A program made the position numbers and the translations under genes. Under the pieces are notes generated by a model that did no database searches, was not told the origin of the DNA, and saw nothing but the letters and a program-made list of their open reading frames with translations. A DNA stretch of 64,000 nucleotides from the NCBI RefSeq assembly GCF_004210375.1, contig NC_134837.1, forward strand, positions 160,869,310 to 160,933,309. Reading direction: 5' to 3'. This DNA comes from Tachypleus tridentatus (Eukaryota > Arthropoda > Merostomata > Xiphosura > Limulidae). This document shows, in pieces, positions 1 to 48,400 of the stretch. Each line of letters begins with the position of its first letter. Within the stretch, counting starts at the first letter, position 1.

Positions 1-2623
1 CATTGAAAAACTCAAGGTAGTGATTCAGAGAGTTTGAAAGATTTCAGGATTGAGTGTATTGATTTACCAGAAAATTGGTAAGAACATGAAAATATTTGTT
101 AAAAACAAGTTGCTCGGTTGTGTATGAATATATGTTACTTTCTTTGAGATTTCAAACATAGTTTACTAATGTCTTATAATATAGATTATTGAAAGCACCT
201 TATCATACATTCTCATGACATGGTATCATTTCATGGACCTTTATAAACCTCAACTGTTCACATACTGTGACATAGACTATGTAAATTACCTGCTACTGCT
301 ACAGCAATTATTGTATATCACCTGAGGATAATACAATTGTTATTAATCATGTCACAAACAACATCAGGTAATACCTCATCGTGTATCATTCATTCAGTAT
401 GCTCTGTAGATATATAGATATATATTGTAATATGTACTGTTGCACAGTATTTAGTCATTTATGTTAGGTATTACTTAATATATATAAACAATTTAACTCT
501 CTTTCTATGTATATGTATATATATATATATATTCTGTCATACGCACTGTTGTAAATTATTTAACCTTTTATTTTTATTAAGCATTGTCTGATCTTTCCAA
601 ATCACTTAAGATTCTTTAAAGATATAGATATTATCATATGCACTATTGTACATTATTGAACCTTGTATTTTCGTAGTACACACTGGGCATTAGCTACATG
701 TGTGCTCTTATAAGAATAAATGAAAAATAATATCCCTGTATAGGAATGTAAACTAATACAACTGTTCATTAAGAGTAAATAGTTGGCTTGGCTTAACTCG
801 ATAATAAAGTGCAAAGCTTTATGTGAACTTTTCGACCGAGATATAATAATTTACATATAAGCCAATTTTAGTTTCTGTTTGTACTGATGCTCAAATCAAA
901 AATAAAGTTCTTGTTTTTCTTAATGAAAATATATTATGGAATTTATGTATTTGCTGTTTTTATCACATGAATTTTAAAAGAAAGAAACAAAAAAGCAAAA
1001 GAAAGAAAAATGAAAACAAAAAATAATAAATGGAAAGGAAATACTAAAGTGAAAGCACATGCGTAAGAACAAAAGTAAGAACTTATCAGATACGAATGTG
1101 AAAAAACATTAACGTTAGTTAATACTTTATAGCAGCATATATATTATCGTTATTAACCCAATTTATAAAGTCTGTTATTCTATATTACCTGACTACAAAG
1201 TTCCCTAGGCGCAGGCATATGAGGTGTATTCTAGTGACTGCAGAAATAGCACCACATAACAATACAACGTCTGTCAGTCTTAACGCCTGTTCGCAAAACC
1301 TCAAAAGTAGAGAAATAATTATATTAATAGGGTAAAATAAAAAAAAACAATGTAAGAAGTCAAGAGAGTGAAGTAATGGGGCTCCAGCCCACAATGTTCT
1401 ATATTATATCGCGTTCAAAATCTGCAGACAGTTATGGGAAGGTTACTAGTCACAGAAGAATATAAAAGGCAAAAATACACAAAAAGTCCTATCATGAGGG
1501 TGAGGGTGAGTAAGAAAACCTTACTATCTGAGCTTGGGTCTCCAGTTTCGATTGGAATAGTAAAATATCAAATGAATAAGGTAATAAGGTAAAACATATA
1601 GTAGAATGAAATTCATGAAAAGTTGTCTAAATTGGTATAACACCCATCAGGAGTATTGAAACCCCATTTTTTATTCTTATAAAACTTCAGACTTACCGCG
1701 GTAGTCCTAGGTGGTCAACTTTAAACCGAGAAATGAACATTTAAAGTCAAATTCAAGAAACTATCTTAGGAAGATACAATAAACTTTAAATCAACAAACA
1801 GTTACTCTCACCCTTTATTTAAAATAGTGGTTCAGCTCTGGCAACTTTCACCTGTTGTTTTGTATTGGTTTTTCTTGCACGTGATGATGAAAAATGATTA
1901 TTCAAAACATATTTTATATATTTTTAACTATTTTCACGTTTTTAGCGATTTTAAACAACTGGATGAGTACTTATTTTAAAAGGTGTATAGAAAACATTAG
2001 ATAATGGGAAAACAATACCTCTAGAAACATACTACATCTAACTATTTTAGGTGAAACTTTGGATTTCTTACAATCGACAAAATGATTTATTCAACTTCTT
2101 GTGGCCACATTCGTAAATTTCAACCCAAACAGTTTTGGCGCCATCTATCCACGAAGAATAAAATAAGTAAAATCGTCAATCACAATATCCTTGTTTCTCG
2201 CGGTTAATTAATATAGTTTGAGTATGAAACAGTTACACAAAAGTAACGTACACTGGCTATCGAAATAGTTTTTTCTGTTTCATCTACGAACGTCCCTGTA
2301 AACTGACATAAAACGAAGTGAGTTTTTATAACTAGTGTAAACGCCGTCAAAACTTATGGGAAACTACTTGAAACCAAAACTATTCTGCATGAAAGTAGCA
2401 ATACACAAAAGGAATAAATAAAATAATACATAAAATGTTAATTTCCAAGGAGCGTGCTACATCTTGCTCTTGAATTAACTACATATATCACTAAGCAAAC
2501 GTGTCTTTGGATAAAAAATTAAAATATACGATGACGATCATATAAATAGATACACACTTTTCATTTTACTAAGTTGTTCTCTTTACTACAGATTATTGGT
2601 ATCTTCAGTCCTTTTTAATAAAG
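1..2623. other. No gene recognised
   Basis: AT-rich sequence with stops in all frames and a short AT run near 516-531. A 69-codon open frame on the minus strand at 1185-1394 has no recognisable motif or splice context. Confidence 0.6.
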
Positions 2624-2635
2624 ACTTCTTCATAA

Positions 2636-2914
2636 ATGGTGCCCGACATGGCCAGGTGGGTTAAGGCGTTCGACTCGTAATCTGAAGGTCGCGGGTTCTA
2701 ATCTCCGTCACACTAAAGATGCTTTTCCTTTCAGCCGTAGTGGCGTTATAAAGTTACGGTCAATCCCACTATTCATTGATAAAAGAGTAGCCCAAGAGTT
2801 GGCGGTGGGTGGTGATGACTAGCTTCCTAACCCTGTAGTACTACACTACAAAATTAGGGACGGCTAGCGCAGATAGCCCTTGAGTAGCTTTGCGCGAAAT
2901 TAAAAAACAAACCA
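2636..2914 (+). mobile_element. SINE family A copy, complete, with target-site duplication
   Basis: tRNA-like head (A box around TGGCCAGGTGGGTTAAGGCG, B box GGGTTCTAATC), a central body, and the tail GCGCGAAATT plus A/C-rich end. The 12-bp ACTTCTTCATAA flanks it at 2624-2635 and 2915-2926. Confidence 0.9.
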
Positions 2915-4451
2915 ACTTCTTCATAATAATTTTCAGTCATAGATTTGCGATAATTTATTACTTTTTTTTTTTTTACAGGGCTTGACAGGGTGCGAATGTA
3001 TTTCTGTGTCTCCGATACCGGGAGTTTTCCTGGCTTTCCTATTCCGATCCAACCTAGCTTGACGTCATAATGATGTGGATAATGTGGATGTCACACACAA
3101 ACGCCATGTATGATCTGGTTTTGAGAGCTTTCTCCTTTTCATTCTTTTATATAGCAAAAAAAAGTTTCAAAATTTCAAAGTTATTTACAGGTGTTTATGA
3201 TAACGGTTAAATTCAACTGAAATGGAAATTGACAATTAAAAGAAGAAGTGTTACAGAAAAGAAAAAAAGGATCTGGACTCGTGAAACTTGTCGAATTTGG
3301 AGAAATTGAGTGTAACTGACCGAAACTTGTTTTAATACATATAAATGATGGAGTTCATAACATACATGTTTGAAATGTGTGAAAAAAAACAATACAAACG
3401 GAGATTATCTGAGATTGGAAGTGATATATTATAAAAGCTGTGTATCGCCGTGTTTACAAGAAACGTTTTAGTTGTTCGAAAAGTATTAACAATAAAATCA
3501 TGTTTATAAAGTGTTAAGTTTGAAGGCTTATAACACCGAAATCTGGGTTTAGAAACCCGAGACAAGTGTGATACTAGTTTAACCAAGTGGGTAAGAATTG
3601 TATTATTAATTTCTTTTTCTGTTGTGTTACTAATATTTCTTTATTAATTTGACCTTTTAAACTCTGTATCACGGTAAAATACTCTGTTATAGGGAATGTT
3701 TATTGTCTTGCTCCAGTTTTTTATTTTTTTGTCACTTGTAAAGTAGTGTTTGATTAACTTTTTTGTGTTAGGGCACAGTTGATAAAACAGTCACATAATA
3801 GAAGTGAGGAGCTGCCCAAATAAGAAAAAAAATATTGAGAGGAAAAACGTGTCACACATACTTTAAACACTGTTCCATCGACAATACAACTACTGGTAAA
3901 TAAAACTACAAAACATAATGAGAACATATACGTTATTTTATTTTATATAATATCCATTAGTATACAATATCAATCCATGCAAAAACCCTTCAGTAATCAT
4001 TTGTGATTTAAACTTATAGGTTCCTATTATACTGTAAATGATTCTCTTAATGTGTGATAAAAATTGAATCTTACGTATAATTATGTCTGTACATAATAAT
4101 ACATACGGTATAGTATAATACCACATGTAATATGATATAAAGTAATAAATTAACTATACAAATTTAAATTATAAAAAGAAATATATCAAGCATATCAAAG
4201 CATTATATTTGAAATGACGAATTATACCTTCTTGCTATTTCAAAACAACTATAAAACTAACGTTTGGATGTGGCGCTACTTATTAAAATATATTTCAGTT
4301 ACTTAAAATGTGTCACTACCATTTTGATTTTCAAAATCGCTTGTGTCTAAATGAAGCTACGAATACGGCACCAAAAGCTGTTGTTATTTATAGTTAAACC
4401 TATGAAACCATTCTTGTCAAACTGTGTATCCTTTAAGATTATATATATATC

Positions 4452-6215: not shown

Positions 6216-6426
6216 TTACTTAAAATTATTTTGAGGCCAGGATGGTGAGAGGAAGGTTACGTCCTGTGAGAGAGACCAGCCGTGTACTGCTCTTCTATCA
6301 TATATTCTCAGAGGTAGCGAATCTGCAGTAAACTCCCCTGTAGCTCCGATATCATTGCCAGATGAGCACACGGGTGGAGAATGTCTGTCCCAGTACTGGG
6401 ATCGAATAAAACCACGAACAGATCGC
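6216..6426 (-). CDS. Sialyltransferase-like gene, last coding exon with motif VS region
   Basis: The acceptor is TATATGTAG|GCGATC; the stop is TAA at 6218-6216. The end RAVHGWSLSQDVTFLSPSW aligns without gaps to the ST6GalNAc C-terminus. Counting back from the shared Trp (W300), the motif-VS His falls on P288 and the Glu on D293. Confidence 0.85.
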
Positions 6427-9400
6427 CTACATATACAATATACTTCAAATGAAAACACATTTAAGTCTAAAAGTCAAAATAATGATAAGAATTGTTGAGC
6501 ACTTTTTTTTGCTTAAGACCAACAATAGATTAGGAAGCTGCTTACAATAATCTCAACAATGTATTTATTGTTATATAACTAGTAACAAATATTATTCGAG
6601 AAGCTTTAAAGTTTGTTTTACATTATGCTTTTATTAACATTTTCAAAAACGTTAGGATGGTCTTCTCTAATTCCATTTTGAGCAGGTGACTTAAAGATTT
6701 TATGCCTTTGAATTCCCACGTACGACATGTTTTAAAATCTAAAGCAAAAATGTTGTATATTGGTCAGATCTATTAATTAAAAAGTGCCAAAAAATTTGCC
6801 ATGTTTAAAATAAAATAACATGCATAAATTTAGAAACAATATTTCAATACAGTTATACAAAAATCAACAGAATAATGGAAAAATAACGTACTTGCAATAT
6901 TTTGGATCTGGCACATCAATAATTTTAACACTTGAGCATCCAGCATCAGTCATGATATAAATAGCATACCAAAGTGTTGAGGGTTGAACACCTAACATCT
7001 TATAGCTACAGAAAACATGATTTATTAATAACCTGGGTTAGAATTTAAAATAAAAGAATTCTGATATTACAATAGCACGTTACTATTATGGTAGTTTCAA
7101 GAATAATAAGAAGACTAAGGTTCAGTAAATATTATTTTAAAACAGGTATCGCCATGTTCACAACACTTTGTCAACTTGATGATACTTGTTTATCTTTTAA
7201 AAGCTTGGCAATAATCGTCTAAAAATAAAGAACTTAGATAAAGATTAATATATTCTTATCAAAAGTAAACCATGATATGATAAGAGTAAGACTTGCTGTA
7301 AGACACAGCTTATATTCATAACCTAAACGTTTTTTTACCATTTCTAACAACGAAATCTGATGTTATATTTTGGTTTTTACTGCTATATTCTAAAGGACTC
7401 ACGGACATGCCACTTTATTACGACATCCAATCGCACTTGTCAAACACCTGAATTATTTGTTTATTCACGATAAACTTGTTATGATATTACTTAAGCCCTA
7501 TAAATATGGTGAAGTGATCATAACATGGTTTATCTACAATATAAATGGCAGAAGAAAGGCGTGTGTGTACGTATGTGTTTTCTTATAGTAAAGCCACAAA
7601 ATCAGGTTATCCGAGGGGAATCGAACCCTTGATTTTAGAGTTATAAATCCGTAGGCTTACCGTTGTCCCAATGGGAGATTCAAAAAAAGGATTTATCAAC
7701 ATATGTATGATAATGGGTGCTCGTCAAGTAATAGTGTCTTAAATATAGACTTTTTCTTTGGGTGGTCGTTCAAAGAAATGTGTCATGAAAGCCTCTCCAC
7801 TGTGACAATCGAAATGAATTACGTATGCATCTAGAGGGATTGACGCTGGAGACAGACTGACAAAAGCCAGATAGATTTTCAAAGTGCACCACACGTCAAA
7901 TAATGTTCCATTAATTGATTCCGTCAACATTCGACTATTTATAACTGTGTACGTTGCAAACTTTCTTACATGACAGGTGACAATCTTTTGAAAACCACTT
8001 AGCAGATATAAAAAAGGGATAATGACTTCAATTTGTGTTTACAACATAAACTATAGTCAACAAAAGATTGGAAACATGTATTGTGATATCATGGTTTAAT
8101 TTTCACGTTCTTCTTACTTACATAATAATATAAATATGGATTAATAAGAACGTAAGGAATTTGACCACCTTATGATGTTCTCATGTTCAAAATTCTAGAA
8201 ATAGTGTAATGATGTGGGAAATGTTCTCGGGGCCCGATTTGGGGTTTTAATTCTTTTAGAAGAAATAATAAGGTTCTTAATGTACCTAGTTATGTCAACT
8301 CTGCAGTGATGAATTTTCACGCTGATGGACTATAATGGTACAAATTATTGGTCTCGAAATCTCTAAAGTTTCCTCAAACAGTACGACTTGAATGATATAC
8401 TTTTAAACATACAACCGCCTGATTTCAGTATGAACAAGCATCTTTATAATGAAATTGAACCTCAAATTTACCACTATAATCCTCTGTTGACATTTATGGA
8501 TCATTTACAGATCTTGCTTATTCCTGGATGAAAAATGGAGCAAGCGACCATTTACCATTTTATAGATCTATACCACTTCGAGTTCCAAGTTATTATCACG
8601 GTTCAATCCGATGTTAGCTGGCGTTTAATACGAAAGTCTATTTTAAGATTACAAGAAAGCATCATTCCAATTCCTCCTAGAGTTTATATTTCTTACTCTT
8701 TAAAAGGGTTTAAAACACTTTTAATTATTTGACCGTCATTTAAGACACCTTTAGACATTACTTGAGAAACATAATTAGTATTTCTCTTTCTGTGTAATTA
8801 TAATATTGACAATCGATTAGTTTTAGATAAAGGAGATTGCATTCAAGTTGTATGAAAATGAAGTTGCTCTTCTAGCTTATGAAAAGTTGCTTCTTTAATA
8901 TAACAAGCATCTAAAATTATAAGAATTCTACTATTTTATCTTTTGAGTTCTAAAGGAAAACTTGGAGAAAAGCAAAACATTTTTAGTTAGAACCTCTGAG
9001 ATAGTAACTGATCATACTGCTCAGAATTTAGTTGTCAATACATCAAAATACATCCACTCTTTTGTTTTTTTATAGTTCTTATAAGATTACTTGATGGCTA
9101 TCTACGCTAACTGTACCTAGTTTATTAGTGACAGACTATAAGAAAGGCAACTAGTTAACACCACCTACCGCCAACTATTGAGCTACTCTTTTACCAACAG
9201 AAATGGGATTGATTTTCATTTGTTATCGTTCTGTAATGGATTTACTGTTATATATTTCTTTTAATATCGATGTTTGTTTCAGTTAAATATATTTTTCTAC
9301 ATGTATGTAGCTTATACTGTTAAATCTGTATTGTGAAATTCCCGCCTATTCACTAAAATTGTACAAGCTTCTCGATTGTAAGAATCAATAATGCACCATT

Positions 9401-12400
9401 AGCGTATGTAAATACTAATGATTGCCAGTATTTTTGCCTTAGCTGAAATTTCTAGAAAATGTTTTCTCAAGCTTATAAAAGGCAACCAATGCAACGCGAG
9501 AAAACTATTGGAAGATGTAACTATAATTAACATTTATGAATCGCGAAATTATATCACAAACCGTTTAACTTTATCAAATTAACTTCGGATGTCAGTATTT
9601 CTACGAAGACATTACATAAGTTCAGTTGTAAAAAACTCTATGTGAAGAGCTATCTATCACCCCATTAAGTGAATTGTACCTCATTCAACTCATAGTTAAT
9701 TCGTTCGACGTAAACCGTTGGTAAAATATTCAGTTCTAGACCAGATAGACGATTAAATATGGTTTGTAAATTTGTAAAGTTTTTGTATATAAATCATAAT
9801 TTTTAACAACTTTTATTATAAATTATGTTATTCTTTCTATATTAAAAATATATATTTGTGTTAATAAAGAAAACTGTGTGTATCAATTTGTGTGTTGACA
9901 AACATCATAAAATTGATACTTCTCTGCATTCATTTAACGTCAAAATCCAAATTATAATTCATCTCAGTTTCAGACTATTTGAACTTGTAATACGTGACAT
10001 AATAAACTGGAGGATTGTCTGAGATAAATTATAATACGTAACAGGTTTCACGGCTGAAAGCTACCTGCAGGTCAAGTCTGAATCTCGTTACCAGACAATA
10101 CCAGTCTTAACAAGTGTATTACTAAAGATAGCTATAGTAACAACTCACCCTACAACTGCTGCTGCTTCTCTCATGGCTATTAAAGCTCGGTGCTCACTAT
10201 GCCTATCTAGAAAATATAATGTGACGTTCTTGTTGTATCTAGAAAGATGTTTCAATCTCGTCCGCGTAGTATGCAAGTCACTCCCAGCACCTCTTATGTC
10301 GTGCACGAAAACATTCTGGCTCGTCAATCCACCAGTAAGTATTTTCTTGAATGTTTTCAGTAGGCGCCTTAAGCTACAAAAATAAAAATAACAACAAAAA
10401 GAATATGTTGAGAAACGTTAACGTCTATCTATCTAAAACAAGTGGCCATTCGAGAATTTTAAAACCAACAACTGTACACAAATCATATTGTTTGTTTGTT
10501 TTGAATTTCGCGCAAAGCTACTTGAGGGTTATCTGCGCTAGCCGTCCCTAATTTAACAGTGTAAGACTAGAAGGAAGGCAACTAGTCATCACCACCCACC
10601 CTCAACTCTTGGGCTACTACTCTTTTACCAACGAATAGTGGGATTGACCGTCACATTATAACGCCCCGACGGCTGAAATGGCAAGCATATTTGGTGCGAA
10701 TGGGATTCGAACCCGCAACCTTCGGATTACGAGTCGAACGCCTTAACACACTTGGCCATGTCGGGCCCCACAAATCATAATTTCAAACAAACGTCCTATT
10801 ATATAAGGTAGGTATTGTTAACAATTGTATGTAAAACGTATTTGTTAGGTGTTGTTGTATTTGATTTGATTTTTATATGTGATTATACTGTATATGGAAG
10901 TTACCTTTCATTATCTAGAAGTCTGGCAGTTGTTTTCTTCCCTACATCATCTTCTAGTTGCCTTACAGAAGATAAACCTAACCGAAACACACAGTCTGAT
11001 TGGTCTATTGTATCACCTTTTTTCGATCCTAGAAGTAGACCTGTAAACATACAAATTACCATAAAACAAGATGAAGAACGTTTTGGAGAATTGTAGAATG
11101 CCCTGTTATTTTTATTCCTGTAAAATCAAATGATTTGAATCAAAATAGAGGAAACTTTTGTGCTAACTGAGCTTAGGCTTAAGTTATCATACTTAACATC
11201 TGACCAAAGAATAAAATACAAATACTGGGGGAAGAAAAAGACAGTAAGTACTATGAACACTTCTCTAAAGACACTTTTATAGTATATCTGAAACATTGCT
11301 TTCTAATGGCTATCGTAATACATAGATTTGAATTATTGCATATATGATTTAAAATATATCTCCATCCATTGAGGCTACAAGTGACAATTTAACGTATCAT
11401 TAGGGTCAATAATCAAATATGCCAAGCTGAATGTTGTGAGATTAAATTTTGTAATAGATGAAAGTGTTTTTTGTAGATAGTTTAATAGATAGGAACAACA
11501 AAGTAATATATATATACATATATATTCGGTCTTTAATTTTGATCAAAATAACTTCATTGAAATGAATCACAATAAATGTTAATTAGAACGACCAGAACTT
11601 CTGAAAATCTGTTACTTTTACTTTTATATTATAATCTAACTTTTTATTACATTTCTAAGGTTACAACTACATATAAAACTTTAATATCACATTGATAACA
11701 TTTTTGCATCTCAAAATGTAAAAATGTATGTAAAATTAAATTACGAAAGAGACTGTTTGGCAAAAGTAATTTTTCGAAGTTTTATTACTATTGTTGAGTT
11801 GTTATTCGACTACGTTGTACATGTAAGCGATGAGTAAAAACTGTTGCTAACTTTCCAAAAATTATAACATTTCATACCTTTTTAGAAGTCGTCAGGAGTT
11901 GGAGTTACCAATATGAATACCTTAATTCTCACCTTTAAAAACTTTATGTGTCAGATATGGTAGTAGAAAATATTTTCTTTCCCTGAACTCTTTCAGTGTT
12001 TCATTTCTGTATGTTCCGATTCCGTATTTTGAAATTATGAAAAATCTCTCAAGAATATAATTATCCAACTGATTTACGATTACAGTTATTGTTGTAATTT
12101 GAGAATCAGCAGTATCCACAAAAGGTAAATGGCATGGTATCTCATACCCAGACCCTATATCTTTAAGCACAGTTTTACAGATTACTTCTATTAATTTCTT
12201 AAAGTTAATCTTTAAAAACCTATTAATTTTTCACAATTTATGTTAATACTACAGAACATGATTTTGTTTTTGAAAATTAAAATGCATACCCGATGTTCCA
12301 ACTAAGGAACACGTCCGACACTTCAACTCCATTGCTTTTACCTCTCCATTGTAGTCACGATAGCCTGTAGGCCCCCTGAAACTCTGAACTCCTGAGAAGT

Positions 12401-12740
12401 AATAATACGAATTAATATTTTCAGCGCAAATTTAGTTTTATATATAAATTTATTTAAAGCTTTCCAACTAATAACATATTGTTTTCCTTAATAACAAACC
12501 TAAAAGATCCCTCCGAGCGACCAGTCGGGGATGAATCTTCTTAGAATCTCCATATTGTTTAGACAGGTCACGTATTTTTATCTTGCTTACACTAAAATAG
12601 CTTGGAAAGTAATCAGATTTGGATGTATCTTCTGATGCTTTAGAAATGTCGCTTAAACCAAAAATCAAGTGAATCAGAAATCCACTGGTTGTGAGGACCA
12701 AAAGGCATTTAGCATATGAAAACATCTGTTCGTTTGTTAA
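6216..12740 (-). CDS. Sialyltransferase-like protein, ST6GalNAc group (GT29), six coding exons
   Basis: Exons in order: 12740-12500 (ATG at 12725), 12391-12290, 11040-10905, 10319-10149, 7005-6892, 6426-6216. All junctions are AG/GT with matching phases (1,1,2,2,2), giving 319 residues, close to the 300-340 usual for ST6GalNAc III-VI. The protein has a short cytosolic start, one signal-anchor at about residues 6-23, a stem, then a luminal domain, so it should be a Golgi type II protein. Motif L contains KCRTCSLVGTSG and TIDQSDCVFR. Motif S contains PSTLWYAIYIM and keeps its disulfide Cys (C235, pairing with C103). The C-terminus HGWSLSQDVTFLSPSW matches the family end. Family members move sialic acid from CMP-Neu5Ac to GalNAc-type acceptors. 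Here the usual motif-L Asn is G131, the motif-S YG is ID, and the VS His and Glu are P288 and D293, so activity is doubtful. An acceptor with a strong pyrimidine tract before 12740 implies an upstream 5' UTR exon that I did not find. Confidence 0.85.
6892..7005 (-). CDS. Sialyltransferase-like gene, motif S exon
   Basis: The acceptor is TTTTCTGTAG|CTATAAG and the donor is TGCAA|GTACGT. It encodes GVQPSTLWYAIYIMTDAGC and SSVKIIDVPDPKYC. The spacing from the motif-S Cys to the following Cys (13 residues) equals that in ST6GalNAc proteins, but the family Tyr-Gly is Ile-Asp. Confidence 0.85.
7555..7680 (-). mobile_element. SINE family C copy
   Basis: The minus strand reads a tRNA-like head with B box GGGTTCGATTCCCCTCGG and a tail ending in ATAAGAAAACACA. 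It lies in a sialyltransferase-like gene intron. Confidence 0.7.
9060..9220 (-). mobile_element. SINE family A, diverged and without its head
   Basis: Shows the tail and body (ATGGCTATCTACGCTAACTG, CACCACCTACCGCCAACT, CTACTCTTTTACCAAC). It sits beside the LTR-like repeat in the same intron. Confidence 0.7.
9310..10015 (+). repeat. Solo LTR-like repeat, related to 26800-27440
   Basis: About 500 bases (from about 9500) align in order with 26830-27440: ACTTCGG..TTCTACG..GACATTACATA, TTAGTTCTAGACC, TTTGTAA..TTTGTATATAAA, and a late GTATCA..TTGATAC stretch. A TATA-like TTATAAAAGG is at about 9473-9482. With no coding sequence next to it, it is best read as a solo LTR inside a sialyltransferase-like gene intron. 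The outer limits are uncertain. Confidence 0.6.
10149..10319 (-). CDS. Sialyltransferase-like gene, exon between motifs L and S
   Basis: The acceptor follows GACGAG and the donor is GTAGG|GTGAGT (phase 2 to phase 2). It encodes 56 codons, including NVFVHDIRGAGSDLHTT and NVTLYFLDRHSEHRAL. Sequence is variable in this part of the family; the support is the phase match on both sides and the lack of stops. Confidence 0.75.
10488..10768 (-). mobile_element. SINE family A copy, complete, with target-site duplication
   Basis: A full-length minus-strand copy. The 11-bp CACAAATCATA flanks it at 10477-10487 and 10769-10779. It lies between the motif-L exon and the next exon of the sialyltransferase-like gene. 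Confidence 0.92.
10905..11040 (-). CDS. Sialyltransferase-like gene, exon encoding rest of motif L
   Basis: The acceptor is TTTACAG|GTCTAC and the donor is GAAAG|GTAACT. It encodes LLLGSKKGDTIDQSDCVFRL then DDVGKKTTARLL, matching the motif-L frame (IDQ-x-x-CV-x-R ... DVG-x-(R/K)-T). The Asn that normally follows R-M is Gly here (G131). Confidence 0.88.
11933..12154 (-). other. Possible alternative exon in the sialyltransferase-like gene
   Basis: This 222-nt open segment lies in the intron between the two motif-L exons. It can start after ATATAG and ends at a consensus donor AAAG|GTGAGA, both phase 1, so inclusion would keep the frame and add 74 residues (for example FVDTADSQITTITVIVNQLD). 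The acceptor lacks a good pyrimidine tract. Inclusion would split motif L, so it could only belong to a variant transcript. It may equally be a chance open frame or a relic of another gene. Confidence 0.25.
12290..12391 (-). CDS. Sialyltransferase-like gene, exon encoding start of motif L
   Basis: The acceptor is CTTCTCAG|GAGTTC and the donor is TCGG|GTATGC, phase 1 to phase 1. It encodes the end of the stem and the motif-L start YNGEVKAMELKCRTCSLVGT; the second Cys (C103) is the conserved sialylmotif disulfide partner. Confidence 0.85.
12500..12740 (-). CDS. Sialyltransferase-like gene, exon with start codon and signal anchor
   Basis: A good acceptor (pyrimidine-rich, ending CTTTCCAG) precedes 12740. 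The first ATG is at 12725-12723 and starts MFSYAKCLLVLTTSGFLIHL, a hydrophobic signal anchor. The donor is TTTTAG|GTTTGT after 12500, leaving phase 1. An in-frame reading continues upstream of the ATG within the exon (LTNEQ), so a longer N-terminus from an upstream exon is possible but not needed. Confidence 0.8.
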
Positions 12741-30495: not shown

Positions 30496-33400
30496 CTAGA
30501 GGAAATAAAAAAAGTGAGGTTTGGTCATTCGTTTCTCTTTACCATTAATTGTATTGAAAATGTTTACAGTTTCTTATTTTATGGTATATTTTCCGTTTTA
30601 TATTCCCTTCTCAAATAGTAAGTACTTTGTTATATTATGTTTTAACAAATATTTCCTTACTTAGGTATAAAATCTTAAAAAAATATAAATTATTATAAAA
30701 CTTCATTTCCGAGAATTTTGTTCAGTGTTTATCTTTAGTTTTCAAGTTCAATCCTCGAGACGTTCTAGTTCTATTCTGTTGAGAAGTTTTATTTTTATAT
30801 TCTACTTTTACCAGAAATGGAATCTTGGAGATTTTTTGTATATTTTTCAAGTTAATGATCGTAATCATCATAAATATCTAAAGCGCCTGATTTGGTGACT
30901 GTACAAGAACTGATAGGATAGTCTGAAAATTTAAAATTATGTCTTTTTTTCTGGAACAATTATAGCTTCTCAGTGGCATATGATTATGACAAGTTAATCA
31001 ATGCAAAATTGTCAGCACATAGGTTTATTAATAGTAATGACGCAAGAAAAGGTTTATAATAAATTTTCTCAGCATGACATCAATAAAGATCTATATAGCA
31101 TAGCAACAAGTTTGCTGGAAAAATTATGTCAAACTCCAAGATGTATATGTTTCATAGAAAAGTGTGATCCTTTTTCTAAATGTTTCCTGTACAAAATATC
31201 AATTGATAAGGCTCAGATACAAGAATTTTAAGAACATTTAAATAAATAAAAATTCCAATTAAAGACTAAAGTGAAAAGAATATATAATATATTACAGAGC
31301 CAGATCTGCTATATCCTGTACCGACGAAGCCTTTTGTCCAATACTAAGGCTATTCAGATCAGCTATAGTACGAAAAACATAATAATGGTTCTGATGCTAA
31401 TTGTATCATTAAGCTGCTTCAATGATAACTGTTTTGGTGTGAAGTTATAAAACTTGAGTGATTGTTATTTTTATCAGTTTTATTTAAATCACTACACATC
31501 CGAATTGGGATAAGGAATGTTACAGTTTTCTGAAGGCCTTCGTATAGTTACTTTTATGACATTATTGTAGATAAATTGGTACATAATATGCTTTATTATA
31601 TCATAAACTATGATCTTATATTTTGTTTATTACACTAATCATAATTACTGTTATTCCTTTGGATTCGGCTTACTTCATATTCTGCTACTGTCCATAGACA
31701 ATCATGATTTTGGTAGTGTCACATTTCTAGATGTTGACAATCTAGACTGACACTTCCACAGTCAATACATGATAAACTTGTGGAGCAGAGACACTATCCT
31801 TTACTACCTTAAAATTACATGAATATTTTTTTATTAATAATTCTTCAAAATATTTAATATTTTTCATAATAGGTCAGTTAAGTAATAGGATTGGGAAGTT
31901 TAACCATTGAAAATACAGGACAATATTTCCTAAGTTAACGTGACAAATGATATTAATTTTTCAAACTGTGCGAATATTGATAAATTTCTTACTATTTATT
32001 AAATATTTTTCTAAACGGGCTATCGTACTGAAAGGCTATGGCCCAGTTAGAAGGAAAAAGTTCCTCTTTGGCGATGTAGAAATCACACACAGTGCTGGAT
32101 CCATCAGAAAGCTGTCGCATCTTATAATCCATCATGGCTTCCTCATTAATCCAGGCCACAGAGCCATTCCTCACAAGCTTCATAATGCTGCCATCATCGA
32201 GACTCAAAACACCGTACTGAATATTAGTTTCCCAGAGTGTTCTAAAATACTCGGACCTCTAAATAAATTGATGAAAAGAAAAGAAAACTTTTGAAACAAG
32301 GTAGTTTCAAATTTCGTGAAAATTTTTCTTTAGGTTGTTTATGGGTTTTTCTTAAAACTTGTGGCTTATGATTCCTTTTTTAAATAAGTTACCAGTGCGT
32401 AGTAAAATACTTAATTCAATTTTTTGACTTCTTACTCAAAAGTAAACTTAGTTATGGCAATCGAAATCAAAATAGAACTAAATTAATTATCTGAATATAC
32501 AATAAAACTCAGAAGACGCACAATAAAGTACATTACTTAACCCTCTTTTTTAAAGATAATTATTGGCATAGTATATGCTAGCGAACAGGAGCTGTAACTG
32601 TGTTGTCATCCGTAATTTTTATTAAAATGAAAACGATTTCAGTACTGTAAATATATTAAAATACTGAACAAACTTACAAATATTCTTCAACCGTTTTTAT
32701 AAGCTTAAAGTATTGTTCCAGTGAGTTAAATGTCCACTGCAGAAAGGAGAAATAACCAACAAAGTCTCATAGTTTATTTAACGTGAAGTTAATCAGGTTT
32801 TGCAGCAATAAGATGACTACATGTAACATACGAAGAAAATTATTTGGGAACAGCTCAAAATTGAGCTGTTGTATGTGGTATTTGAGATTTACAAACCTTA
32901 AAGTAACTATGAGCCAAAGATCCATTTGATACAACTAGTTGAAATGAAGGATACTTTGAGGTGAAGCCTTCTAAAGTATTCACTGGACTTTCAGTTTTCT
33001 TAAGACTTAAAGTAGACGTTAGATTTCCACTGTAGACAGAGCTGAAAATAACCATAGTAAACCACCAAGCGGCCATTACTATTCTTGAACTCGCTGTTTC
33101 CGGCAACCAAGCACATCCTTGAGAGAATTAAACATAATACATTTTACAAAATGAAATTAAAGTACACGCATATATATATCCTAATTCTGTCCTGTTCGTA
33201 TACTTTTCGTCTCTTTTCTGTTGAGTATCAGAGAAGGTGTTTAATAATAATAATAATTATCGTCTCTGTTCTGTTGAGTATCAGAGTAAGTGTTTAATAA
33301 TAATAATAATTATCGTCTCTGTTCTGTTGAGTTTCAGAGTAGGTGTTTAATAATAATAATAATTTTCGTCTCTGTTCTGTTGAGTTTCAGAGTAGGTGTT

Positions 33401-36400
33401 TAATAATAATAATAATTTTCGTCTCTGTTCTGTTGAGTTTCAGAGTAGGTATTTAAAAAAAATAATAATTATCGTCTCTGTTCTGTTGAGTTTTAGAGTA
33501 GATGTTTAATAATAATAATTATTATCGTCTCTGTTCTGTTGAGTATCAAATTAGGTGTTTAATAATAATAATTATTATCCTCTCTGTTCTGTTGAGTATC
33601 AGAGTAAGTGTTTAATAATAATAATATATGAGACTGATTTAATCTTCTTCCATCTGGCAACTCTGCTTAGATCTATGACGTAATATTTTTTGTCTACAAG
33701 TTAAATTTTAGAAAGAGCTTGTTGTGAAGGACACAATATTTTCTATTTTTTTTATAACTGGGGAGTTACATATTGATAACGTTATTTCATATGATAACTT
33801 ACATTTGCTACATGAACGATTAAGGAATATTGTACTTTGTTACTTAAAAATAAGTCACATACATATGCATTTACTGCTAATAACAAAATTTTGAATTTGC
33901 ATAAAATAGTACAATAATTAATAAATTGAATAGAGCTAACTTTCGACAAAAATGATCTTTTAAAGTAACATTATGCGAGAAATGTCAGATTAGGTCTATT
34001 TAATGTTGGAAAAACGGCTCGGCATAACACTCGACTCGTAATCCGAGGGTCGCGGGGTTGAATCCCCTTCACACCAAACATGCTCACCCTTTCAGTCGTG
34101 GGGACGTTATAATGTCACGGTTAATCCCACTATTCGTTGGTAAAAGAGTAGGCCGAGAGTTGGCGGTGGGTGGTGATGACTAGCTGCCGTCCCTCTAGTC
34201 TTACACTGCAAAATTAGGGACAGGTAGCGCAGATAGCCCTCATGTAGCTTTGCGTGAAATTCAAAACAAACAAACCTTGAATAACAAGTTGTCGATACGA
34301 GTTTTCCAAACATTGTTCTACAAGTTCTACTACAGATGATGTTTCATTTTCTGATATATTGCTATACACAAAGGTGAAGAGAAACATGACAATTCCCAAA
34401 ACTAACATGGCAAAAACTAACGTGATCCAGAGCTGAAAAAATAAAAATTATGGTTAACGACACATAGAAATAAAATATTTTGTGAAATCACAATAAAAGA
34501 CACAAAGTAAGAAACTTAATACTATAAAAACTGTTATTTTCATCAAATAACTAATTTCAGGAACCACAAGAACCTCTTTTTAACATTTTAATATATTGTA
34601 TACATCCATATAAATACACACTTTTCCACTGATCTCCCTTTTTTGTTTGCTATAATTTATATTTTTTCCCGAGGTAAACAAAATGTCAGTGCAAATGCTA
34701 GCCTGTTTTCTCGTATATTCAAATTAGGTACATTAACGGTGATCGTGAATTTAATTTTAACCAAGCAAAATTAAACTTTGTTTCACGATTTGGCCCGGCA
34801 TGGCCAAGCGTGTTAAGTCGTGCGACTCGTAATCTGAGGATCGCGGGTTCGCATCCTCGTCGCACCAAAAATGCTCGCACTTTCAGCCGTGGGGGCGTTA
34901 TAATGTACGGTCAATCCCACTATTCGTTGGTAAAAGAGTAGCCCCAGAGTTGGCCGTGGGTGGTGGTGGCTAGCTGCCTTCCCTCTAGTCTTAAACTGCT
35001 AAATTAGGGACGACTAGCACAAATAGCTCTCGAGTAGCTTTGTGCGAAATTCAAAAACAAACAAGTTTCACGATTTTAATAATTACCTAAGTTTGCATTA
35101 AAAAAGTAAAATGTTTAGTCTTTTTTTGATAAGAAACATATTATTACAGGTTTCTTGTGCAAGATAGGGATAATGCATAACAGAAATAGAGATTGCTGTT
35201 ATATATATCATCAACACATGATCCATTTAATCAACCTTGTACGCCCTTCCTCAAAGCAGTGCCAATTCTTATGACTAATTCTTCCTGTTTTAATACTTTT
35301 GATAATTTTACACTCTTAACTGTTTACTGTATCAGAATTTTATATTACATGCAATTATTTCTGTCTTCTTTTGGCTATTTCTTCAGCTTATCCAAAGTCA
35401 CTATGTACAATTAAATATATGTAAAACTAACCATTACTGAGTAAGGTTCAAAAAGAATCCAGGCACGACTTAGAAAACTAGGCGATTTGTAAATGAATTT
35501 TGTGGTTTCGTAGAAAACAGGGTACGTGAAATCAACCACTTGAGCTCGTTCTACATCCCAAGAAAGATCCGCTACTGCCATGTCTGCCACCTAAAATGTT
35601 ACGTATTTTATTATCTATAGTAAGTATTGGAGAGTTGAATAACGCATCAGTTTTCAGAAGAAATTATTATTAGTACTTTTAGATTAATAGTTACACTGAT
35701 AATTACTAATCTCTAACAATTTATCATAACATCCTTATTTAGAGTTATTAACTACACACACAGGCTATCATAGCTGCAAACTTCAGTAAAATAGTATTTT
35801 AGAACAAAAGAAATGGTTTTCTAACCCTTTTGATGTTAAATGTTCTTAGAATAATCATTGAATAAAGTAAGTTTGAAAGATTCTGTGCTACACTATATAA
35901 TAAATTGTGTTTTCAATGTTGATTTATATTTTATTATTACATATATAAGTTAGTAAGTAAACAGATAAAATCATTTAAAACGTTCTTAGTAGAAGGAATG
36001 AACATATTATATATACATATTATTATTTATAAATAACATATCACTGTGCATTGATGTAGAAAAGTAAAGAAACAGTGCTGTAATACTTAAGTTCACACTG
36101 CTTTCGTAGTTCTCTCAAGGAATCCGGCATGGCCAAGCGTGTTTAGGCGTTCGACTTAACTTCCTGGTCGCACCAAACATACTCGCTCTCCCATGATGGT
36201 GCGACGGGGATTCGAACTAACGACACTCAGATTAACCCACCTGGCCATGCTGGGCCCCGAAAAGAACTAGCAGTGTCCAAAACTTGATTTATCTTTTTAG
36301 ATTACAAGTGTTTTTAGACATAAAAATGCAGGTTTGTTTTATCTTTTTCTTTCAGGTATTCGTGCAAAGTTACACAAGGGTTATATGAAATGATTGACTA

Positions 36401-39400
36401 TAGAGAAAAGACAGCTAATTAACAAAGCATGTTTATATTAATTTTTATTTTTTTAAACAAATATTATTATTTTCTTTTATTATCTTCAGATTAACAAGCC
36501 CGGCATAGCCAAGCATGTTAAGGCATGCGACTCGTAATCTGAGGGTCGCGAGTTCGCATCCTCGTCGCGCCAAACATGCTCACCCTTTCAGTCGTGGGGG
36601 CATTATAAATTACGATCAATCCCACTATTCGTTGGTAAAAGAGTAGCCCAAGAGTTGACGGTGGGTGGTGATGACTAGCTGCCTTCCCTCTAGTCTTACA
36701 CTGCTAAATTAGGGACGGCTAGCACAGATAACCCTCGAGTAGCTTTGCGTGAACTTAAAAAAAAAAACAATCAGATTAACAGCCCCCAAATGATAAATCT
36801 GAGAGTTTATTGCGCTAAAATGTGTTACCAGTGTTCTTGGTTGACAGAACACAGATATCCGATTGTATAGCTTTGTGTTTAACAGCAACAACAGAATTTA
36901 ATAATGTTAGCACGTTAGAGGATTAATATTTATTCAACATTTTTCCCGTTGGTTTTGTTACATTTTATTTTTTCTTGTTTATCTTTACACTGATACCTAT
37001 CTCTTTCATTTCAACAGCGACAAATCTCTACGCCCGTCATTCCACATTCTATATTCGCGAGCCCTTCGTTATTTCTGAGGTGAGATAACAATATACGTTT
37101 TATCTGTTCAAAACATTTGGCTTAAAATGATAGGAAAAGTGTGCAAACAGATTTTTAGTACCACATGTACGTATTCATGTCTGATTAAACAAAATGCCTT
37201 TTTTATTGTTCCATATAACACAAGCTATTACAGAACAATGTGACTAGTGACTGACCCACAAGCTGTTTAACCTACTTTTCTTTCATTCCATTCTTTCATC
37301 GCCATCAACAAATTTTGTTCTCGCCGGATTATCAGAACTTTTCTCATGAAAAATATAATGTTTTGAACTTGTCCTGTTTGTTTGTTTTTATTTTCGAATT
37401 TTGATACAAAATTGCGTGATCGTTATATGCGTTTAGCCGTCTGTAGCTTGGAACTGATAGGCAGTGCAGGTACTCAATAAAACTCGCAGCCAAGCCTTGT
37501 GCTATTGTTGTCTGTCCGAATACTGGGGATAGAAATACACCTTTATTGAAATTAATTGAAACAAGACGGAAAATTACGATTTTTCAATTTTTTTGCGTTT
37601 TATTTCTGAGAATTTAAAAACTACTCACAAATTAATACATGATATGACAGCCTTTATTTTTCAGAAGATCATTAATACGCTTTGGCATCGAGTCCACGAA
37701 TTGACTGCAATCTTTACTAATTTTTAGATTGTGGTACCACACTTCAACTATGGCCTCAATTAGCTTATCTTTCGTAGTACAGTCTTTTCCACGAAGTCTT
37801 TCTTTACAAATAGTCCAAAGATTTTCAATAGGATTTAAGACCGGAAAGTTTCCAGGCCAGTCCAGCACTTTTATTCGTGTTGTAGTCATAAAATTATTCA
37901 CAAGTTTCGAAGTGTGGCATGGAGCCAGATCTTGCTGAAAAATGCCAGGTCCATCTAGAAATCTCTTTTTCAATTCTGGAACGACTCTTCTCTGCAAAAC
38001 TTCGATGTACTGTGGTCTTCGCATCATACCTTCTACGATATGTAAGCCTCCGACGCCATAGTAGCTGAAAAAGCCCCAAAACATCTTCTTTAAGGGATGT
38101 CTTACGAACTGATTGATGTGAGATTCTCGAAGTTTCTCACCTGGAGATCTGCGAACATGCAGACTTCTTTGACCCTGTACGAAGAAATGAGTCTCGTCAC
38201 TAAATAACACCTTCTTCCATTGTTCTTGCGTCCAGTTCTTGTATTTCAGATCCCATTGATACCGTTTTTTCTTCATTGACTTGGTAAAAAGTTGTTTTTT
38301 GATTGGTCGCCTTCCCCCCCTTCCAACGCAATTTTGAATGACGTAATATTTCTCAAAGTTTCGTCATATATCCCAAAAATAGATCGACCGTACTGCAAAA
38401 CATAGCTAATGACGCCGTCTGTGCGAATAAATGACTATTAAAGGAAATCAGCGGGTCCAGCGAGCCTACACTGGCCGCCATGCTGAAAATATTGTAAAAT
38501 GACCATTTGTTTCAAACAATTTGCACAAGGGTGTACGCAATTATAGCACTAACGTGGCTCTAAATTATGAGGTACTTTTCAGCGGTGATGGAAGGCGAAT
38601 CATGAATCATCAGGTTCACGGTGCAGACACGCCACTCGATTCGCCACGTTCCGCCTAAACTTGTCCGTTAGAGTACAATCAATTTTCGTTTGTACACTAA
38701 TAAAACTTATATCACGTTTAACATGCAAAATTTTTCTCGGAAAAAAATCGGAGTTTCTTGTATTACCAGAAATCCTTAATGAAAGTTAAGATTTTCAAAT
38801 CCTTTTCTTTGTAAACATGCATTTGTTTTCTGTTATTCCATTATCAATTATAGAAAGATACAGCCTGTCAAGATACATAAAAACTACGGTTACCTCAATC
38901 ATCAACTTCCACAGTCCTGTATCATTTTCTTTATTTTCACTTCTTTAACATAAGTTGTTGATGTAACTACGTGTAATAAAAGGTAGTTATGCAACAGTAA
39001 AAGCAGAAAATATGTACCGAATCAGTACTTACCCCTCTTGTTAGTTCTCCAATCAATCCATTCCAAGAACCATTTTCTGATTTTATACCGTAATGTTTCT
39101 CCTTGGGGTCCTGAACAGAATAGCTATGACATTTAAAAAATACTTATCGTTACACTTGTTATTTATTTTTTATTATAAGACGTTCTTTTTAACTGTTCTT
39201 TAAGCTTTATTATTATACTATTATTTTATAAATACCTCCAAAGTTTTTAAAATAATGGTTTACAATGACAGCTATCGTTTGGCAAGTGAAGCTAGTTTTT
39301 AACTTTTTATTTGAGAAAAAAGTGAAATAATATAACTACATGAAAATGATATATATTTATTTTAAGATAGGCATCTCGTCAAACAGTAGGTTGATCAGTA

Positions 39401-45400: not shown

Positions 45401-48400
45401 CATTGAAGGTTTTAAGAGACATGCCATGAATTTGGGGTATTATAAATTTATTTTTATTAGTTGCAGAAAAATGTGAAAAAAATCATCTGAACAAGCGGAG
45501 TTTTAACTTGGTGTTACATTGTATATTTTCACATAGAATATATATAAATATTGTTGTACTATCTTATGTCCATGTAATTACTTCTCAAGGTTTGAATGAA
45601 TCTTCACCAAATTTGTTATGGAGGCTCATTGGGTCTATGGGGAGATACATACAAATTTTCAGTTTTGTATTATGCGTTTCTATGGGACTTTATTGCGTAT
45701 TTCACGATGATGATAGATCTTTAAAAGTTTTGGTATGGAAATTTATTGGGTCCATGGTGAGATACATGGAAAGCTGCGTTTTCGCTTTATTTCCAGTTTT
45801 TATGAGCGTTTTTGCGTTGCTTTTTTCACAATTGCATATAACGGAAGCAAGTTTTTATGTCCTACTATAGCTTTTAATTAATTATGAAATTACATAACTG
45901 ACTTACAGTAGACGGATACTTCTGAACCATACAATAAATCTTTTTCTTTCGTTAATTTTTCTCTTGTATTTGTTGCCAGACATTCCCAAACATGTCCCAT
46001 AGTATTTCAATAAATCAAATTAAAATTGATACCACTTACTATAAATACATAATGTATGTATTAGTATAATAATATGTATTTTGCAAACAATTGTTTACAT
46101 TTATTCGGCACAAAGACAAGAATTATCGAAGAATATATTATACGACTCTGGTATATGCCATATATTACCTGAATGCGCTTCATGAAAACTTTCAGCTCTT
46201 TTTCATTTCTTGCAAGAAAAACGTAACCTTGATAGTTTTGGAGCATGCCTTGGTTTCGTGGCCATTTGAAGTTTGGTACATAACTCAGGTTAATTATGGT
46301 CGCCTTGATACGTTGATGAAACAGGTTTTCGATTAAAAGACTTGTTCCTGTGACGATGAATAAAACTGAGACACCTTAATAAATTAAGAAATACCCTGAT
46401 CTCTTATTGTTACTTAAGGATAGTTCATCAATAAGTATGATTTCTCATCGAAGCGCCGTCGTCTTATAATATGTATGATATTAATTTATATTGCAACTTC
46501 TTGAGGAAAGAATGAGTTTTTACCACACTGATATACGTATTGTAATTTTTGTTGTTGCAGCAAGCTTTCCACTTACTGTTCATTAAGCATGATGAGTAAA
46601 ACGGATCAAAAGCCAGCTTGAATAAAACTATTTATAATACACATATGAATGTGGCAAATATTATTTTAATAATTTTCTTATAAAATGTGATTATCTAGTA
46701 GTTAATATGTTCAACTTTCAGTTTATTTATGATGATGAGAAGCTCACTTGAAGTAAAAAGGTATTAAATTTAAGAACAGAACAACGTTTTGACTTCTTAG
46801 GTCATCTTCAAGTTAACAGAGAGAGTTTGCAACTAATGGTTGCTAGGCACATGTCTTAAGGACAAGAGTGTAAACAGGTACGAAATATAAAGGGGGCTTT
46901 GCAGTCAGATGCTTGGTTTGTTTCTTTAATTTCGCGCAAAGCTACATGAAGGTTATTTCCGCTAGCTGTCTATAATTTAGCAGTGTAAGACTAGAGAAAA
47001 GGTAGCTAGTCATCACCACCCACCGCCAACTCCTGGGTTACGCTTTTGCCAACGAATAATGGGATTGACCTGACAATATAATGCCCCTACGGCTGAAAGG
47101 ACAAACGTATTTGTCCTTAATCTCCTGGCCATGTCGCGCCCAGATGTTAAGTTATTAATTGATACAGGTATAAAAGTGTTCATTTATATTGGTATAATTT
47201 TGGTTTGAGTTCTTGTATAAGTAATACTTATTTGGTTTTGAATTTTTTTAATTTACTTATTTATTATTTTTGTGTTTTCTATGATTATTTGCAGTGTTCA
47301 AACATGTGCGAAAGTGTTACTGTGCTCTTTGAATCTGGATTCTATTTCTCTGCTTGTTTCTCCGATGCAGAAGTTGTAGCAGTTGTATTTTAGAAATAAT
47401 GTTGATGTTATATTTCTCAGTGTAATTTTTGCATAGTATGGATTTTAGTTGTGTACTTAGTTTTTGATTGAACTTAACATTTACTGGAATCTTATGTTTT
47501 GTTGTAAGTTTTCCAAATATTGGTTAGTTTAGCACTAACATTAGGAACATATGGTATGCAACAATGAAAGGTTTTATAGTTGGCTGTATCATTAAATTTA
47601 TTATTGTTTGTTTGCTGTTGATTGTGTTCTTGGTCTAGTAGTGTGTCTGTATAATTTTTTCAACGGTTTTTGAAGGAAATTTGCTGATGTTGATGAAGTG
47701 TTGTTTTATTTGGTTGATTTTATCATTACTTTTATGAGGTGCTCACAGTTTTGTGGCTTTGTTTATTTGGTTTCTTAATATGTTGAGTTTTGTTTTGTTA
47801 CAAGTGCTGAGTTTCAGAGAATGTGTAGTCTAGTATTTGCGACTTTTCTGTGAATTTCTGTTTTAAATTGTTTATCGGTTCTTATGATCTTGAGGTTGAG
47901 AAATGTTATTTGATTAGTTTTGTTGTGTTCATAGGTGAACTTAATATTGGGTTGTATAGAGTTAACGAAGTTGAAAAACTAATTGTGTGTTCTGTAGATG
48001 TGAATCCAGAAAGTTTATCGTCAACATGTCTGTACCAGTATAATGGTGGGTGTAAGGCTGAATTCAATTTGTGTCAGAAAAATTTTAGCTAGAATTGGTG
48101 ACACAGAATTGTCCATACTTAAGGTATTTATTTATAAGTAGTTTTGGTCAGTTAACATGAAGTTAGTTTTGATAATTTAACATGAAGTTAGTTTTGGTGG
48201 TAATGAATCGTATGAGAATTGCTAATTGGTTGCTGGAGATGAGTATTAATGGGTTTGGGTCTTGGATATAAATTTCTAAAACTATCTTACAGGCTTTGGC
48301 AGTTGAGACTTTTGTGAAGAGGGAGATTATGTCGAAATTGGCCATTAAGGCTGTAGGGTTAAATTGATCAAGAAACTTCCTATGCGATGTATTTAACAAG

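Follow-up and report, generated by a model that had tools for sequence, protein, structure and literature searches.

A candidate pair of pseudo-sialyltransferases of family GT29 in the horseshoe crab Tachypleus tridentatus

Introduction

Can a gene that is intact through all of its exons, and is recognizably a member of the sialyltransferase family GT29, lack the residues on which sialyl transfer depends and still be maintained by selection? The question is raised by a locus of the horseshoe crab Tachypleus tridentatus in a window of 64 kb (the whole stretch of DNA analysed, C13:160869310-160933309, C13 being contig NC_134837.1) of a 2.17-Gb genome in 205 contigs, the one chelicerate genome compared. 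The window carries a complete GT29 gene on its minus strand, and since a paralog on contig C9 repeats its exon structure and most of its substitutions, the gene is not a chance arrangement of open frames. We propose that the two genes probably, though not securely, represent an old and selected pair of paralogs, nearest in sequence, of three kinds tested, to ST6GalNAc III-VI, that would no longer carry out ordinary transfer from cytidine monophosphate (CMP)-sialic acid and may thus be termed pseudo-sialyltransferases.

Results

An intact gene on C13 and its paralog on C9

The initial annotation had described six in-phase exons, and this structure is borne out on the minus strand, with GT..AG introns of 108 to 3143 nucleotides and an open product. 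That product is intact, as had been stated, at a length of 337 rather than 319 residues. The shorter length fits an AG lying 54 nucleotides (18 residues) inside exon 4, and we infer that the earlier model had used this internal acceptor. Because the C9 paralog aligns across the longer exon 4, the residues formerly given as C235, P288 and D293 become C253, P306 and D311, with C103 and G131 unchanged. A signal anchor had also been predicted; residues 7-25 are hydrophobic, with a Kyte-Doolittle mean of 1.95, in agreement with it. The features of the window gene are as follows.

12500..12725, minus strand: exon 1, with the start codon, the signal anchor (residues 7-25, ~12651-12707) and the stem; its counterpart is exon 1 of the C9 gene, C9:16927435-16927711
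12290..12391, minus strand: exon 2, where the stem ends and sialylmotif L begins (C100, C103, T108-S109)
10905..11040, minus strand: exon 3, the remainder of sialylmotif L, where G131 (~10976-10978) replaces the CMP-contacting Asn
10149..10373, minus strand: exon 4, linking motif L to motif S and carrying a D-R-H-x-E block (H213, ~10199-10201)
6892..7005, minus strand: exon 5, sialylmotif S, with S239-T240-L241 for STG, the disulfide C253, and I259-D260 for Tyr-Gly
6216..6426, minus strand: exon 6, motif III with Q278-Y-W-D281 (6387-6398) for H-Y-x-E, motif VS with P306-x4-D311 (~6297-6314) for H-x4-E, and the stop codon
5996..6001, minus strand: AATAAA, a possible polyadenylation signal ~215 nucleotides beyond the stop codon, found by pattern match only

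The intron between exons 3 and 4 contains, at ~10480-10780, a repeat that by eye resembles a tRNA-derived short interspersed element; ARAGORN reported no tRNA.

Membership of GT29 is indicated by the Pfam sialyltransferase profile PF00777, the check that had been suggested, which matches the window protein with an expectation value (E) of 3.6e-17 and 63.1 bits (cut-off 23) over residues 94-158, that is, across motif L only; the C9 protein scores 57 bits. Searched against the genome, the profile finds three loci, on C11, C13 and C9. The invariant GT29 disulfide cysteines of motifs L and S, reported earlier as a conserved pair, are both kept (C103 and the renumbered C253) and are also present in the C9 paralog. 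Matches of the window protein to solved GT29 chains centre on motif L, ST3GAL1 scoring best in the phmmer search (33.3 bits); a profile search, whose matches centre there too, found no close relative among solved structures. The NCBIfam search matched 0 families, and one scan of viral contigs gave 30 stretches matched by pattern, none of which was confirmed as a relative.

With the window protein as query and hits admitted to E 10, the genome search returned 11 matches, of which six are its own exons and five lie on C9. The C9 paralog is a complete plus-strand gene (16927435-16939603) of six exons in the same phases, with the exon-2 acceptor as its least clear junction, and its product of 357 residues is 41% identical to the window protein. 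Some 430 kb away, at C9:17373279-17373495, a frame-shifted copy of the last exon, to which one of the five C9 matches belongs, is the only exon in an inverted 7-kb duplicate of the 3' end that is 98.9% alike and reflects either a recent duplication or an assembly effect. This recent partial copy excepted, no third intact family member was seen with either protein as genome query, among the best candidates, which alone were scored. A search with human ST6GALNAC5 matched five places (C11, E 1.7e-4; C4, 0.032; C13, 0.215; C9, 0.217; C8, 9.99), those on C4 and C8 with internal stops; it reaches the gene in the window at no better than E 0.215, an indication of how weak such a search is for single exons.

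The GT29 gene on C11 matches rat ST6GAL1 (4mps) at E 1.1e-66 and retains R-F-N, S-S-G, H-Y-Y-D and H-P-L-A-S-E, so that the Asn, both His and the Glu are present. It is an internal control: the same genome encodes a GT29 protein with normal residues. The genome also holds parts of the donor pathway: C4 has four NANS-like matches, and C12 has one exon that we take to read like CMAS.

Catalytic positions in the two paralogs

In human ST3Gal1, H316 is described as the base and H299 as the acid, with N147 and N170 as contacts to the phosphate of CMP (PMC6884586). The H299A and H316A mutants are inactive (PMC6884586, citing earlier work), N170A is strongly impaired and N147S much weaker, with some activity left in both, and E302Q and E321Q retain 25-80% activity (PMC6884586). 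In view of these activities, Glu-to-Asp changes and a Thr at the N147 position count for little here, and the greatest weight falls on the two His and on the N170 position.

Residues were compared by alignment to human ST6GALNAC5, in a sequence whose two sequons agree with PMC12521282, and the catalytic positions were transferred from ST3Gal1 by motif rather than from a solved structure. At the first motif-L position both paralogs have Thr (T108 in the window protein) and human ST6GALNAC5 has Ser. At the second, equivalent to N170 of ST3Gal1, the reported replacement of Asn by G131 is confirmed, and the C9 protein also has Gly (G152). The STG of motif S reads STL in both (S239-T240-L241). The Ile-Asp noted in place of the motif-S Tyr-Gly is real (I259-D260) and carries little weight, as the C9 paralog keeps Tyr-Gly. 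Motif III, H-Y-Y-E in human ST6GALNAC5, is Q278-Y-W-D281 in the window protein and R-Y-W-D (R298) in the C9 protein; the loss of its His and of the S-T-G Gly (L241) adds to the changes listed previously. For motif VS, H-x4-E in the human protein, the ungapped count from shared Trp residues proves correct under the new numbering, giving P306-x4-D311; the C9 protein has Pro and Asp there given a one-residue gap, and Leu when ungapped. The alignment to human ST6GALNAC5 reaches the C-terminal Trp.

Common to both paralogs are therefore T108, G131, L241, W280, D281 and D311, plus P306 by three-way alignment, and retained in both are S109, S239, T240 and Y279. ST6GalNAc5/6 are described with three lumenal Cys pairs (PMC12521282), and the six corresponding ST6GALNAC5 columns (C100, C103, C126, C253, C267 and C288) are all kept in both proteins. 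The only His columns that the paralogs share are 19, 65 and 213 in window numbering, 213 being His in ST6GALNAC5 as well, so the C-terminal part offers no shared His that could stand in as the base; the C9 protein has no His at all between residues 233 and 356 of its 357. Identical in both are D281, D293, D311, H213 and the D-R-H-x-E and M-R-E-A-A-A blocks. Of 16 columns that belong to the active site or the disulfide, picked by motif and including structural ones, 13 are identical between the paralogs, versus 92 of 208 others (Fisher p 0.004).

Divergence and selection

Across 335 aligned codons the paralogs differ at 47%, 35% and 63% of first, second and third codon positions, and at 42 of 64 four-fold sites. 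Nonsynonymous over synonymous distances (dN/dS) were 0.59/2.84 by NG86 (own script), 0.56/1.94 by LWL85 and 0.55/4.21 by maximum likelihood; as dS is saturated, the ratio can be placed only roughly, at 0.1-0.3. In a substitution-only simulation of neutral change, 106, 11, 0, 0 and 0 of 1000 copies stayed open once 0.05, 0.1, 0.2, 0.4 and 0.78 changes had accumulated per site; the top value is half the four-fold distance. Since both frames are open despite near-saturating synonymous change, this comparison of the paralogs indicates that both copies have very probably been kept by selection.

The earlier suggestion of an intact and possibly non-catalytic or repurposed protein thus gains support from a paralog, 41% identical, that shares most of the substitutions, lacks both catalytic His and has likewise kept its frame open. 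Substitutions shared under constraint had been asked for in chelicerate orthologs; here that kind of support comes from a paralog instead.

Placement within GT29

In BLAST comparisons the window protein scores 76.3 bits with ST6GALNAC5, 50.8 with ST8SIA3, 46.2 with ST6GAL1 (76 residues) and 44.3 with the C11 protein (58 residues, around motif L); the C9 protein scores 80.5, 45.4, 52.8 (220 columns, 24%) and 50.1, respectively. ST6GALNAC5, the one representative of its branch, was used whole and the others as pieces, and the set covered neither ST3Gal nor ST6GalNAc I-II. Cut to residues 89-283, the span of the ST8SIA3 piece, ST6GALNAC5 still gives 66.2 bits with the window protein and 72.0 with the C9 protein. 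No domain-long match to ST6Gal was found for the window protein, whose ST6GAL1 match covers 76 residues, and the ST6GAL1 score of the C9 protein lies below its ST6GALNAC5 score. A six-row tree groups the paralogs at 100/99 and joins them to ST6GALNAC5 only weakly, at 62/45, with a stem as long as 2.03 changes per column. Among the three kinds tested the paralogs thus appear nearest to ST6GalNAc III-VI, and we call them ST6GalNAc III-VI-like rather than proven members of that group.

Surroundings of the two genes

The 64-kb window was compared with 59.6 kb of C9 (1389 tblastn rows) for shared neighbours such as a whole-genome duplication might leave; with the view restricted to open frames of three or fewer hits, so that repeats drop out, the clear matches are the GT29 gene's own exons. 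An open frame at 45430-45867 (plus strand) has one match of 60 residues, 43% identical, to C9:16953329-16953508, which lies ~14 kb beyond the paralog, and may be a repeat or a shared neighbour. On the minus strand, 37632-38363 holds a frame of 243 residues, which we take to resemble a Tc1/mariner transposase; a 30% alike stretch is found within the first intron of the paralog (C9:16929805-16930158). Tandem repeats occur at 56036-56300 (54 bp, 4.9 copies, within a plus-strand open frame of 134 residues) and at 33200-33626 (53 bp, 8.1 copies). Elsewhere in the genome, a coagulogen query gave 19 matches on C11 and C7, four of them near C11:9.02 Mb at 74-94% identity, as suits a horseshoe crab, and these suggest that coagulogen-like genes exist beyond one near C11:9.02 Mb.

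Discussion

Judged by its residues, the loss of ordinary GT29 chemistry in both paralogs appears well supported: with the acid, the base and one phosphate contact gone, ordinary transfer is unlikely. As the hydrophobic anchor and the cysteines are kept in both, a folded lumenal domain is expected. Both would then be type II proteins of the Golgi membrane whose GT29 cleft might still hold a ligand, a glycan being the likeliest; they could act by binding that ligand or by escorting another glycosylation protein instead of by catalysis.

Several observations weigh against this interpretation. When only columns in which the window protein differs from human ST6GALNAC5 are counted, sharing between the paralogs is 7 of 10 versus 61 of 159 (p 0.051). 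The residues kept in both, S109, S239-T240, Y279 and the disulfide Cys, also serve catalysis, so the donor site has not been wiped out. The change at T108 is mild, the position being Ser in ST6GALNAC5, in ST6GAL1 and in the product of the C11 gene. Motif III differs between the paralogs (Gln, Arg), the C9 protein has Tyr-Gly, and the sharing of P306 needs a one-residue gap. The synonymous distance is saturated, and NG86 and YN00 as implemented in Biopython (two of its four methods) gave no dS. Finally, the lectin and escort roles are indirect proposals.

The lectin role has a precedent in porcine ST3Gal1, in which changing the motif-III His to Ala is reported to abolish activity and leave a sialoglycan-binding lectin for the sialylated core-2 glycan (PMC12274613). 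With this one change making a lectin of ST3Gal1, it is chemically plausible that the paralogs bind glycans. We tentatively extend this to a narrower proposal, itself rather doubtful, that a duplicated ST6GalNAc-like enzyme may have become a natural lectin by losing its acid and base His and its phosphate-contacting Asn.

An alternative that deserves attention, even if we regard it as unlikely, is that the proteins are working transferases with changed chemistry or a changed donor, moving another sugar, or moving sialic acid with the help of another base such as one of the invariant Asp residues D281, D293 and D311. The identity of these Asp residues, of H213 and of the D-R-H-x-E and M-R-E-A-A-A blocks in both paralogs, together with the kept S239-T240, would suit such an enzyme. 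There are also precedents: the plant GT29 protein RCKT1 is proposed to transfer 3-deoxy-d-manno-octulosonic acid (Kdo) and not sialic acid (PMC11288761), and, in other glycosyltransferases, FUT8 is described with a Glu base and POFUT1 without an assisting base (PMC8433944). However, both catalytic His and the N170 equivalent have been lost together.

It is very unlikely that the paralogs are ordinary sialyltransferases whose tolerance of residue changes we have underestimated. The donor can probably be made, given the NANS-like and CMAS-like matches, and ST3Gal1 retains 25-80% activity as E302Q or E321Q and some as N147S or N170A (PMC6884586). Yet H299A and H316A are inactive in the same enzyme (PMC6884586), both of these positions are lost here, and the changes co-occur in both paralogs.

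Decay towards a pseudogene, to which the loss of key residues and the frame-shifted last-exon copy on C9 might point, is highly improbable, because the two full genes have kept open frames and GT..AG introns although their synonymous divergence is near saturation, and the broken copy is a separate recent duplicate (98.9%). Equally improbable is an artefact of splice modelling in which other exons would restore the His and Asn: the introns, up to 3143 nucleotides, are predicted from DNA and the genome search is weak for single exons (own gene E 0.215), but the same exons and phases were found independently in C9, the ST6GALNAC5 alignment runs to the C-terminal Trp, and both sites lie mid-exon, G131 in the motif-L exon and the VS site in the last one, away from any junction.

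If the paralogs are indeed pseudo-sialyltransferases, they would add a second GT29 branch in a chelicerate and so change the arthropod GT29 inventory; the introduction of a 2018 paper states that among protostomes only arthropods show GT29, restricted to ST6Gal (PMC5811610). They would also exemplify, in nature, a glycosyltransferase that has given up catalysis and yet persists, here as two genes. Among the papers listed by the literature searches, which covered few subscription journals, none was seen to name such a gene.

Among known systems, the vertebrate ST6GalNAc III-VI enzymes are the closest comparison. The window protein aligns with human ST6GALNAC5 from motif L to the end and shares its six lumenal Cys columns, a V-P-P-D-F-C-like block ahead of motif III and an R-H ahead of motif S; identity is only ~25% (55 of 224 columns), and the Asn, the STG Gly, the motif-III His and the VS His and Glu are replaced. 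The arthropod ST6Gal of the DSiaT type, represented by the C11 gene, has the GT29 motif L and resides in the same genome, but it has normal catalytic residues, and the match of the window protein to it is limited to 58 residues around motif L. Plant GT29 proteins (RCKT1/MGP2, SIA2) are described as being without discernible sialyltransferase activity and are thought to be repurposed (PMC11288761), a likeness by description; the activity proposed for RCKT1, on CMP-Kdo, sets it apart from the paralogs (PMC11288761). The engineered ST3Gal1 H302A lectin (sCore2) is likewise a GT29 protein whose motif-III His is gone, and it is inactive and binds a sialoglycan (PMC12274613). Its single change was man-made in an ST3Gal, whereas the paralogs are natural, carry more changes and are putative binders; if the natural-lectin proposal holds, they would be the natural counterpart of this laboratory-made protein.

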